Positions 5,295 to 7,723 of a stretch of DNA of 8,855 bases are shown here, piece by piece. The notes beneath the pieces were generated by a model. The model saw only the letters and a list, made by a program, of their open reading frames with translations, was not told the DNA's origin and did not search any database. Source of the stretch: an uncultured Alphaproteobacteria bacterium. GTDB lineage: Bacteria > Pseudomonadota > Alphaproteobacteria > Caulobacterales > Hyphomonadaceae. A program made the translations under genes and the position numbers. Location of the stretch: NCBI GenBank assembly GCA_903831485.1, contig CAIKXW010000217.1:1-8855 (forward strand). The letters run 5' to 3'. Each line of letters begins with the position of its first letter. Positions within the stretch are counted from its first letter, which is position 1.

Positions 5295-6227
5295 CTACGC
5301 CACGTCGCTCTTCTTTTCGTGCGCCGAGTGGATCTTCTTGGTGACCAGGCGGTCGAGTTCGTTGGCGACGGAGATGCGGTGGATGAAGGCTTCCTCGGGC
5401 ATGTCGAGGATGATGGTGATCGTCTGGAAGTGGTATTTCACCACTTCGATATCGTAGGTGGCCGTCATGCCGACGCCTTCGATGTAGCGCAGGGCGGACG
5501 TCCAGACGCGGTCGATCGTGTCGTCGCCGAGGCGGCTGACTTCGGCGGCGTTCTGCTGAAGCAGGCGGTACATGCCACGGATGCCGGCGCCGCGATCCTC
5601 GTTGGAGCGGTTGGCGTATTCGGTGAGGCTGTCGATGATGCCGCGCAGCTTGAAGGCGTTTTCCTTCGACTGCTCGGACTTGGCCTTCTGCGGCGGCTCG
5701 TCGGTGAGGCGGCGCCAGGGGCCGGCGTAGTTGGGATCTTCCTTGCGGCGCCGGCAGGGGCCGACATAGTTGCGGCTGTCTATGAACTTGCGCGGACGCA
5801 GGACGATCTCTTCGATCCGCGAGAGCACGCCGTGAGCGCTGACGGGCTTGAGCAGGAATTCGTTGATGCCGTTCTGGCGGGCGGACATCAGCTGGTCGTG
5901 ATCGATGACGCCGGCGAGCAGGATAATCGGCGTCTCGCGCGCGATGCCGGTCGTGTTGCGACGGATCTCGCGGGTGAATTCGAGACCGGACATGCGGCCG
6001 GCGTCCCAGTCCACGAAGATGAGGTCGGGCTTGAAGGTGCGGCCGACCGAGAACGCCTCGACGGCGTTGGCGGTGGCGTTGATGCTGGTGATGGTGAGAC
6101 GGCGCAGGCTGTCGGCGACGACGCCGCGCATGAACGCGTTCGGGTCCACGATGAGGACCTTCATGCGCTTGAGCAGGTCGGGGGAAATCGTACGCTCGTC
6201 TGACATCAGCTTGCCGTGACCACCCAT
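5295..6227 (-). CDS. response regulator: atypical receiver plus uncharacterised helical C-terminal domain
   Basis: The protein is 310 aa from the Met at 6227, or 303 aa from 6206; I chose 6227 because GGA lies 7 nt upstream. Numbering uses 6227. Residues 22-145 are a CheY-like receiver: VLIVDP with D28, phosphoacceptor D73 in IFVDWD, and K127 in EFLLKPVS. Two usual receiver residues differ: the second acidic residue is P29, and the switch Thr/Ser position, by spacing to the Lys, is A105. Residues 154-173 hold two Y-x-G-P-x-R-R motifs (YVGPCRR, YAGPWRR), a tail seen in other alphaproteobacterial CheY-like proteins. The domain from about 187 to 310 is helical and has no recognisable DNA-binding, GGDEF or kinase motif. 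No partner kinase is adjacent. The gene is probably monocistronic, being followed by a palindromic repeat. Whether it is phosphorylated is uncertain. Confidence 0.85.
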   Translation of the reverse strand: MGGHGKLMSDERTISPDLLKRMKVLIVDPNAFMRGVVADSLRRLTITSINATANAVEAFSVGRTFKPDLIFVDWDAGRMSGLEFTREIRRNTTGIARETPIILLAGVIDHDQLMSARQNGINEFLLKPVSAHGVLSRIEEIVLRPRKFIDSRNYVGPCRRRKEDPNYAGPWRRLTDEPPQKAKSEQSKENAFKLRGIIDSLTEYANRSNEDRGAGIRGMYRLLQQNAAEVSRLGDDTIDRVWTSALRYIEGVGMTATYDIEVVKYHFQTITIILDMPEEAFIHRISVANELDRLVTKKIHSAHEKKSDVA

Positions 6228-6269: not shown

Positions 6270-6391
6270 TTGAGACGACGCGGATTTGACGGGGCGGTTG
6301 GTTAACGGCTGGGAAAGAGGTGCGACAGGGCAAAACTGCTTGCAGGTGAGGGCGTTGGCTTCAGGTGTGTAACTTGCTAGGGATGGCTCCC

Positions 6392-6410: not shown

Positions 6411-6428
6411 GAGGAGTCTGGCGTTTTG
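6411..6428 (+). promoter_or_regulatory. Shine-Dalgarno and TTG start of the RHH-PII gene
   Basis: GAGGAG (6411-6416) stands 9 nt before TTG (6426-6428). The frame closes at TAG (6378-6380) and has no in-frame ATG or GTG between that stop and the TTG. This supports TTG as the start of the long form. A GANTC site (GAGTC, 6414-6418) overlaps the element. Confidence 0.6.
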
Positions 6429-6932
6429 AGTGACGAGGAAAAGCTCGACCAGCGCATCCAGCTCGTCGCTTCGGCCAGTTTCGGCCGGGACGTCGATGAC
6501 TGGCGGCGCGGACAGCAGGACCTGCCCAGCCGGTCCGAGGCGATCCGCAGGCTGGTCTATCTGGGGCTGCAGCACGAACAGGAACATCCGATGCGCATGA
6601 TCACGGCGATCGTCCGGCCGCACCGCTATGAGGCCGTGCGCGAGGCGCTGACGCAGCTTGGCGTGTCTGGGGTGACAGCGACGCAGGTGCAGGGTTTCGG
6701 CCGGCAGCGGGGGCAGACCGAGTTCTATCGCGGTAATGAGTATGCGGTGGCCGAGGTGCCGAAGATCCGTATCGATGTGGCGGTACAGTCGGGCATGGCG
6801 GAGGCCGTGATCGAGGCGATCCAGAAGGCTGCGGGATCGGGCAAGATCGGGGACGGGAAGATTTTCGTCTCGGGGCTTACCGAGGTGGTGCGGATACGCA
6901 CGGGTGAGCGGGACGAGAAGGCGCTGGACTAG
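6426..6932 (+). CDS. PII signalling protein with N-terminal ribbon-helix-helix-like extension
   Basis: The protein is 168 aa from the TTG start. Residues 56-168 are a complete PII (GlnB/GlnK) protein, a trimeric sensor of ATP/ADP and 2-oxoglutarate. By PII numbering it keeps Q39 in GFGRQRG, the T-loop with Y46 and uridylylation-site Y51 (TEFYRGNEY), K58, the SGKIGDGKIF loop with K90, and R101/R103 in VVRIRTGE. Residues 1-55 are extra. They contain a short strand-like QRIQLVAS (9-16), a helix around 19-29 and SRSEAIRRLVYLGL (35-48), which matches the second helix of ribbon-helix-helix (CopG/Arc-type) DNA-binding proteins. Usual PII proteins are about 112 aa. No amtB or glnA is adjacent, unlike many glnK/glnB loci. 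Internal ATGs at 6591 and 6597 could give normal-length PII. The PII part is certain; the RHH assignment is likely but divergent in its first half. Confidence 0.9.
   Translation: MSDEEKLDQRIQLVASASFGRDVDDWRRGQQDLPSRSEAIRRLVYLGLQHEQEHPMRMITAIVRPHRYEAVREALTQLGVSGVTATQVQGFGRQRGQTEFYRGNEYAVAEVPKIRIDVAVQSGMAEAVIEAIQKAAGSGKIGDGKIFVSGLTEVVRIRTGERDEKALD
6580..6599 (+). promoter_or_regulatory. possible internal ribosome binding site and start for free PII
   Basis: AGGA (6580-6583) stands 7 nt before an in-frame ATG at 6591, with a second ATG at 6597. The protein from 6591 begins MRMITAIVRP, the usual first residues of PII proteins. A 113-aa PII could therefore be made from the same message as the 168-aa form. 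Confidence 0.4.
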
Positions 6933-7723
6933 CGGGCCACGAACGACGCGTTCGTGGTCTTGTTCGCTTCCGCGGCCGAAGCGACGAAGATGCGTTGGTC
7001 GTAGCCGGGGAAAGCGGCCTGGATCGTCTTCGAATCCGGGAGCACATAGAAGACGCCGCCTTTTTCGAAGGTGGGCTTCACGACCCTGGCGTAGAAATCC
7101 TTCGAGACGTTGATGCAGCCGTGCGTGATGCGGTTGTCATCGGGGCCGGGCGAGGCGAGGCGTTCCTTGCGTTTTTCCTTCGGCGTGCCGTTGTCGGCGA
7201 GGGGATGAATCGAGACGGCGGTCTCGTAGTCGATCCATAGCACGCGCTGCTTGCCGGCGGCGGGGCCGTAGGCGGCGAGGAAGCGACCTGCAGGCGTGGT
7301 GCGGTCCTTCATCGGAATGTCCTTGAGCTCGCGGTCGCCGACGCCGGGGGCGCTGTCGTCGCCCACTGCAGAACCGATGAGCGCGGGGGCGAGGCCGCGG
7401 AGTTTTCCGTTGGCGCCGAAGATCAGGACTTGCGCGGCTCGCTTGTCGACGACGGCGAAGGGCAGGCCGCGATTGTCGCCAGCGGCGATGACCCAGGCGG
7501 CCAGATCGACAACCTGGTCGGCGATCGGCTGGGCGGGGTCGACCTCATCGATGGCTTGCAGGGCGGTCTGCGCGACAGCAGTCAGGCCGAGGGGAGCGGC
7601 GAGCGCGATGCCTGCCGATAGAGCGGCGGCGCGGAACAAGGTTGCGGACGCGGTACGAATGAAGGCGCTCCGTGGTTTGGTCGTCTGTGATCTGCGACCG
7701 GACATCGGAAGGGCCGGACGCAT
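6929..7723 (-). CDS. YkuD-type L,D-transpeptidase, exported
   Basis: The protein is 264 aa from 7723, or 258 from the Met at 7705 (MSGRRSQ); neither start has a good Shine-Dalgarno. Numbering uses 7723. Residues 25-52 give a signal peptide with a basic stretch, a hydrophobic AAALSAGIALAAPLGL core and an AVAQ cleavage-like site. The YkuD signature is complete: H173 in AVSIHPL, and T-H-G-C-I-N with H201, G202 and C203 as nucleophile. Such enzymes act in the periplasm, making 3-3 peptidoglycan crosslinks or attaching proteins to peptidoglycan. The segment WVIAAGDNRGLPFAVVDKR and the PGVGDRE...RTTPAGRF region place it, from memory, in a proteobacterial subgroup in which some members have altered active sites; this one keeps Cys. 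It lies 53 nt downstream of the alanine-zipper lipoprotein. Its stop overlaps the PII stop on CTAG. Confidence 0.92.
   Translation of the reverse strand: MRPALPMSGRRSQTTKPRSAFIRTASATLFRAAALSAGIALAAPLGLTAVAQTALQAIDEVDPAQPIADQVVDLAAWVIAAGDNRGLPFAVVDKRAAQVLIFGANGKLRGLAPALIGSAVGDDSAPGVGDRELKDIPMKDRTTPAGRFLAAYGPAAGKQRVLWIDYETAVSIHPLADNGTPKEKRKERLASPGPDDNRITHGCINVSKDFYARVVKPTFEKGGVFYVLPDSKTIQAAFPGYDQRIFVASAAEANKTTNASFVAR
6937..6957. terminator. 8-bp hairpin past the PII stop, inside the 3' end of the L,D-transpeptidase gene
   Basis: CCACGAAC (6937-6944) and GTTCGTGG (6950-6957) form a perfect 8-bp stem with a GACGC loop. On the plus strand TCTTGTT follows, so it could end the PII transcript. The same bases encode the last residues of the L,D-transpeptidase. 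The T-tract is weak and function is inferred. Confidence 0.45.

Follow-up and report, generated by a model that had tools for sequence, protein, structure and literature searches.

In NikR, a ribbon-helix-helix (RHH) domain is joined to an ACT-type ferredoxin-like nickel sensor, and the protein forms tetramers. PII proteins, which form trimers, belong to the most widespread of all signal proteins and, to our knowledge, have always been found acting by contact with other proteins; they are known to us as partners of other proteins and never as DNA binders. Cyanobacterial PII affects gene expression by way of PipX and NtcA. The 8,855-nucleotide stretch of DNA analyzed here (contig CAIKXW010000217.1 of an uncultured member of the Hyphomonadaceae; hereafter the window) carries a gene that combines both kinds of module, since positions 6426..6932 of the forward strand encode a 168-residue protein with an RHH-type domain at the N-terminus and a complete PII behind it. 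This RHH-PII fusion is confirmed to be a conserved family and not one isolated gene. It is probably an autoregulated one-component regulator, i.e., a PII protein whose RHH domain would read promoters bearing the word TGTGTAA with an affinity set by the energy and nitrogen state of the cell. While cyanobacterial nitrogen control relies on the PipX/NtcA relay, here a domain of DNA-binding type is found in the same chain as PII.

NikR, the parallel drawn by the first-pass annotation, is the nearest described system as regards layout, both proteins having an N-terminal RHH domain, a short linker and a ferredoxin-like ligand domain. The resemblance does not extend to family membership: the sensor of the fusion is a PII of family PF00543, no NikR family (C-terminal nickel-binding domain) is found among the profile matches listed for it, and PII trimers differ from NikR tetramers. 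No RHH-PII fusion was found among the papers listed by full-text literature searches, judged by titles and the beginnings of abstracts, which is not proof of absence.

The frame of the fusion is open throughout from a TTG start to a TAG stop, and the good Shine-Dalgarno sequence noted at first pass (AGGAG, 6412..6416) lies 9 nt ahead of the TTG. The RHH-type domain (residues 1-55, 6426..6590) is present in the window and in all 47 fusion loci retrieved from other genomes. Two separate genes can be ruled out, as a single frame of 163-168 residues is found in the window and in 46 of the 47 fusion loci. The exception is L018 from Hyphomonas ih12 (genome G007), where the frame stops early at 146 aa and the PII part covers 80 of the 102 profile positions; the assembly is a single chromosome, and sequencing error or decay may account for the truncation. 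The PII domain (residues 56-168, 6591..6929) aligns without gaps to Escherichia coli GlnK, with 54% identity in a Foldseek alignment, and residues 56-161 match the full Pfam P-II family (PF00543, positions 1-102 of 102; 93.7 bits against a cut-off of 25), so that the PII part is complete, as first described. Like GlnB and GlnK, the fusion keeps the effector and T-loop residues: Q94, Y106, K113, G142, D143, G144, K145, R156, and R158 are present, among them the equivalents of GlnK Q39, Y51, K58, K90, R101, and R103. Y106 corresponds to Y51 of GlnK. With the exception of K145, these residues are invariant or nearly so in 58 sequences.

Using residues 1-60 as sole query, 209 proteins were retrieved at E <= 1e-3. 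Among the best 120 of these, 118 carry PF00543 and most are 164-168 aa long, within the 160-175 aa anticipated at first pass for PII proteins with this N-terminus; the extension, on whose conservation the idea of a fusion had hinged, is conserved with identities of 72-100%. A second query (a Neomegalonema member) gave 247 relatives, a list that overlaps the first, and all of its best 120 carry PF00543. A scan of 84,980 species, each represented by a single genome, yielded 69 loci, namely 47 fusions (L001-L047), two fragments at contig edges (L048 and L050), and 20 relatives that lack PII and are for the most part small free-standing RHH genes; near-duplicates, e.g., L029/L031, L030/L033, and L011/L012, were kept in the counts. 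Fusions are found in Hyphomonadaceae (Ponticaulis, Henriciella, Hirschia, and others), Parvibaculum, Filomicrobium and other Hyphomicrobiaceae, and Neomegalonema, and many come from metagenome assemblies. Of the 105 genomes in the G007 family, 27 carry the fusion. When 385 alphaproteobacterial genomes were drawn evenly, with the centre genome G018 included, seven matches resulted, i.e., one free-standing gene and six fusions, four of which sit in genomes of 1.3-1.4 Mb.

The PII domains of 30 tested fusions form a single clade (99/97), compared with 14 GlnB, 6 amtB-linked GlnK, 10 orphan GlnK, and 4 GlnB of streamlined genomes, and this clade is separate from every GlnB and GlnK in the tree. 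The fusion thus differs from GlnB and GlnK both by its N-terminal RHH-type domain and by its position apart from GlnB and GlnK encoded in the same genomes. All 20 fusion genomes examined contain one or more PII genes besides the fusion (two to four matches per genome, with the fusion counted), which makes the fusion an additional paralogue. The streamlined genomes of 1.3-1.4 Mb (G069, G194, G290, and G367) retain just two PII matches, one of which is the fusion.

Both halves of the fusion are under purifying selection, the median dN/dS being 0.146 for the extension (550 locus pairs) and 0.211 for the PII part (875 pairs), with the truncated copy L018 included. As the value of the extension is lower than that of the PII part, the extension is translated and selected, and translation from position 6591 alone is unlikely. 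An ordinary PII with a misannotated start is ruled out by the conservation of the extension and the selection acting on it. A related alternative is that two products are made, the full-length RHH-PII and an ordinary PII starting at the internal ATG of residue 56 (6591). This ATG occupies the same position in 48/48 loci, and pairing with the anti-Shine-Dalgarno upstream of it averages -5.2 kcal/mol compared with -4.3 kcal/mol for synonymous codons (mean z -0.42). However, this excess is small and was obtained on related rows, and the methionine may be an inherited relic of a PII start, so that a second product appears rather unlikely.

Turning to the RHH-type domain, profile similarity is weak, since Pfam RHH_1 is matched only by residues 34-44 (12 bits against a cut-off of 20.5), and a profile search by itself is insufficient for the assignment. 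The cut-off fails to separate the group, as free-standing relatives also score under it: among six scanned, four reach 15.2-18.0 bits and two give no match. RHH is therefore used as a structural description and not as Pfam membership. A structure model of the domain alone (pLDDT 87) has an extended segment at residues 8-16 and helices at 17-28 and 36-53, and RHH antitoxins are among its best structural matches, the best Foldseek E being no better than 1.4. In a model of the full-length protein the PII part is formed, but residues 3-13 appear as a low-confidence helix. About seven residues link the RHH and PII parts. In 58 aligned members, R10, Q12, and V14 are invariant, and the segment SRSEAIRRLV is invariant or nearly so. 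R10, Q12, and V14 lie in residues 8-16 (DQRIQLVAS, 6447..6473), the putative DNA-reading strand, a function suggested by invariance and by covariation with TGTGTAA. The RHH-like character claimed at first pass is supported by conservation and by covariation of the strand, while the similarity at profile level is weak, though not absent. Overall, the interpretation as a PII fused to an RHH-like extension is supported.

TGTGTAA, on either strand, is found within 210 nt upstream of 48/48 fusion genes, the window included. Over 300 trials with Markov-resampled upstream regions, a mean of 1.3 loci and a maximum of 5 loci carried it, and the rest of the same loci contains nine further copies in 670,614 bases. 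The upstream regions of different lineages are mostly unalike apart from this word. In the window, the sole copy (6366..6372; 0.10 expected) is taken as the putative operator core. In loci outside the window group (the 23 of 48 loci made up of the window with its relatives and those of Ponticaulis type), an array can be recognized with the consensus TGnGTAA-nn-TGTGTAA-nn-TTGTCAA and a period of 9 bp. Thirteen additionally fetched fusion promoters all bear TGTGTAA; they coincide with loci of the genome scan and were hence not counted as independent. The core of the window lies in the 17-nt spacer between a possible -35 element (TTGGCT, 6355..6360) and a possible -10 element (TAGGGA, 6378..6383), which together can be read as a putative weak promoter. 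TTGGCT or TTGGCA is also present in L001-L009, and a -10 of the form TANNNT occurs in six of nine close relatives (L004-L009) and not in the window or L001-L003. A strict promoter scan of the window reported no promoter, the TTGGCT/TAGGGA pair included. A sigma-54 promoter was considered, as the window contains GG-N10-GC, the spacing of the sigma-54 consensus, and was dropped because relatives break GG-N10-GC yet keep TGTGTAA.

Free-standing relatives of the RHH domain allow the strand and the word to be compared. Among the 20 free-standing loci of the genome scan, TGTGTAA lies upstream of 8/8 genes with an R-x-Q-x-V strand and of 0/12 with other strands (p 8e-6). Among 17 viral contigs, the corresponding figures are 6/6 and 1/11, and for the contigs new to the set 3/3 and 1/10; the viral loci L404, L410, L412, and L420, which are the same DNA as loci of the genome scan, were left out of the latter, and L405 shares part of L053. 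As word and strand co-occur in these free-standing genes, TGTGTAA most likely belongs to the R-x-Q-x-V strand, which the fusion carries as well. It could be argued that the extension is a structural or oligomerization add-on without DNA binding, with which the weak Pfam RHH match would agree; as the strand residues are invariant and covary with the operator word, this appears highly unlikely. The free-standing proteins (L049-L069 and L404-L417) share with the fusion a homologous RHH domain and, where the strand is R-x-Q-x-V, TGTGTAA or TTACACA upstream; they differ from it by having no sensor domain, and several are found in prophage-like surroundings. Genes that look from their sequence like antirepressor, lysozyme, and tape-measure genes adjoin several of them, which suggests a prophage setting. 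Phage-like neighbors or viral contigs are found together with the same strand and operator word in L049, L061, L063, L404, L405, L408, L410, L412, and L414. The DNA-binding part of the fusion may accordingly stem from a prophage repressor.

Besides the fusion promoter, the candidate targets are an orphan glnK and genes for DUF4278 proteins. The orphan glnK encodes a 114-aa PII with a close relative in 100 of the 105 genomes of the G007 family, and it is not adjacent to amtB in the fusion genomes whose coordinates were compared. TGTGTAA is present in the 300 nt upstream of it in 21/26 fusion genomes and in 1/74 fusion-free genomes, the latter being G493, a close relative in which the fusion is either absent or unassembled. 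The glnK sites have the same 9-bp spacing as the array at the fusion promoters, and their place and orientation vary (forward at -54 to -102, reverse at -33/-34), a variation that speaks against inheritance of a single stretch. A divergent DUF4278 gene with three YRG motifs stands beside the fusion, with TGTGTAA in the shared upstream region, in 23/48 loci; outside the window group 23/25 loci have it, inside 0/23. In Ponticaulis, the DUF4278 gene lies elsewhere in the genome yet retains a TGTGTAA site. Five of eight triple-YRG proteins exceed the cut-off of the PF14105 profile (25.3 bits), the other three scoring 22.0-24.9. By a profile made from the triple-YRG proteins, eight genes were found in 6 of 41 genomes, and all six carry the fusion (two of Ponticaulis type, Henriciella, Hirschia, Parvibaculum, and Filomicrobium); none was found in 13 window-clade genomes, in G007 and G482, in 18 fusion-free genomes, or in two streamlined genomes. 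TGTGTAA lies within about 100 nt upstream of all eight. According to PMC6316151, DUF4278 forms the N-terminal part of the cyanobacterial glutamine synthetase inactivating factor IF17 and cyanobacterial DUF4278 is tied to glutamine riboswitches, so that a DUF4278 gene next to a PII regulator fits nitrogen control; DUF4278 is what cyanobacterial nitrogen control (PII, NtcA, and the glutamine synthetase inactivating factors) has in common with the fusion loci. The idea that cyanobacterial PirA belongs to the DUF4278 proteins found no support, as the main text of PMC8092223 does not contain the term.

Across whole genomes, AANNTGTGTAASNNNNNNAA, a pattern of 20 bp, was found at 33 sites spread over 24 of the 27 fusion genomes of the G007 family, namely 8 at the fusion gene, 13 at glnK, 7 at DUF4278-type genes (that of G480 has a single canonical YRG), 3 not examined, and 2 elsewhere. 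The fusion-free genomes of the family contain 8 sites in 7 of 78 genomes, four of which share a site ahead of a lipoprotein-like gene. With the reversed pattern as control, there were 8 hits among fusion genomes (in 6 of them) and 40 among fusion-free genomes (in 35 of them). Of eight further fusion genomes, six have exactly one copy of the pattern, at the fusion gene, and two, of Neomegalonema type, have none. The pattern TGTGTAASTTNG was rejected for describing the regulon, as it gave 13 hits against 17 for its reversed control in 10 genomes; RTGTGTAAS and the 20-bp pattern took its place. In GC-rich genomes RTGTGTAAS is less frequent than its reversal, probably as a result of codon usage, and this depletion was given no weight as a sign of function; the AT-rich streamlined genomes show no depletion of the word, and no regulon emerges from them.

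It may be asked whether TGTGTAA is a promoter element or the site of some other regulator and is not read by the RHH domain of the fusion. The core of the window lies inside a putative promoter spacer, and in four fusion-free genomes (L364-L367) a similar site, AAGATGTGTAAGA, is found about 23 nt ahead of an unrelated lipoprotein-like gene of 492 aa, where another regulator may read a similar word. On the other hand, TGTGTAA precedes three types of genes, at glnK it is nearly confined to fusion genomes, and it tracks the R-x-Q-x-V strand in free-standing RHH genes; moreover, a general element would be expected to be common, whereas RTGTGTAAS occurs only five times in G007 and nine times in G001. 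A promoter element or foreign site is thus unlikely.

As to how an autoregulated RHH-PII regulator might work, the fusion would form a PII trimer with one RHH domain attached to each N-terminus through the short linker, and paired RHH domains would read TGTGTAA half-sites, which in many promoters form tandem pairs or triplets with a repeat of 9 bp. Its targets would be its own promoter and, depending on the lineage, also the orphan glnK or the triple-YRG DUF4278 gene. Binding most likely represses its own promoter, because the core in the window sits between the putative -35 and -10 elements, and the PII domain most likely tunes the affinity for DNA according to energy and nitrogen state, given that the residues for ATP and 2-oxoglutarate and the T-loop tyrosine are kept. 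A PII protein would in this way govern promoters of the PII pathway without an NtrC-type relay. If true, a PII with its own DNA-binding domain shortens the nitrogen cascade to one protein, and DNA affinity becomes a direct assay of how effector binding is transmitted within the PII trimer. A likely operator and a predicted small regulon also come out of the analysis, which links PII to the poorly understood DUF4278 proteins. Alternatively, the fusion may bind DNA without PII effectors setting this binding, either because the RHH domain parks an ordinary PII or because a partner, such as AmtB, GlnD, or the DUF4278 protein, removes the fusion. Conservation of the T-loop tyrosine and its neighbors and the divergent DUF4278 genes adjoining nearly half of the fusion loci would suit this possibility, which is nevertheless doubtful, as effector-site residues, unneeded for partner binding alone, are kept in most members and the partner is purely hypothetical.

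Several observations weigh against a ligand-tuned regulator of TGTGTAA promoters. The lysine of the GDGK segment, K145, is T or V in L022, L026, and L027. One free-standing gene with an R-x-H-x-V strand also has TGTGTAA. In four streamlined genomes the core is missing from the 300 nt next to the fusion gene (the closest copies lie at -324, -711, and -582, and the fourth genome has none). Five fusion genomes have no site at glnK, and the contrast between fusion and fusion-free genomes (Fisher 7e-16) is not corrected for kinship. The glnK of Parvibaculum has no promoter site, and in two of four genomes a copy directly follows the preceding amtB. A more elaborate version of the regulator, in which two PII trimers joined by three RHH dimers would read arrays of three tandem half-sites spaced 9 bp apart, so that the ATP/ADP and 2-oxoglutarate status would directly control transcription of the genes of the PII pathway, seems speculative as a whole. 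It would add that the divergently encoded three-YRG protein feeds back on the PII trimer in some lineages, and that the DNA-binding part was acquired from a prophage RHH repressor together with the operator word. The YRG motifs resemble the PII T-loop motif YRGxEY, a likeness that may be due to chance.

amtB was also considered as a target and rejected, most loci examined having no close upstream core. Thirty loci with PII matches (<=3.3 kb each), all canonical by sequence save L088, where no frame was read, contain six TGTGTAA copies in 98,514 bases; most are near glnK-type genes, and one lies 114 nt before the amtB-linked PII gene of G019. In three loci of Ponticaulis type (L173, L174, and L197), clustered copies occur 800-1270 nt upstream of one amtB, next to TTATCCACA, which we take to resemble a DnaA box; these clusters possibly mark a replication-origin region or the array of another regulator.

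Regarding the neighbors of the fusion, a response-regulator-like gene (5295..6227, reverse strand), whose function is read from its sequence alone, shares one intergenic region with the fusion gene, and members of its gene cluster are found in 23 of the compared loci, the window counted in. On the other side, an L,D-transpeptidase-like gene (6929-7723, reverse strand), so named from a look at its sequence, extends over the final four bases of the fusion gene. The Ponticaulis-type fusions L011, L012, L015, L016, L017, L019, and L047 lie a few kb from PhoU-, PstA-, PstB-, and PhoB-like genes, as far as sequence inspection tells, and are also near two tandem response-regulator-like genes.
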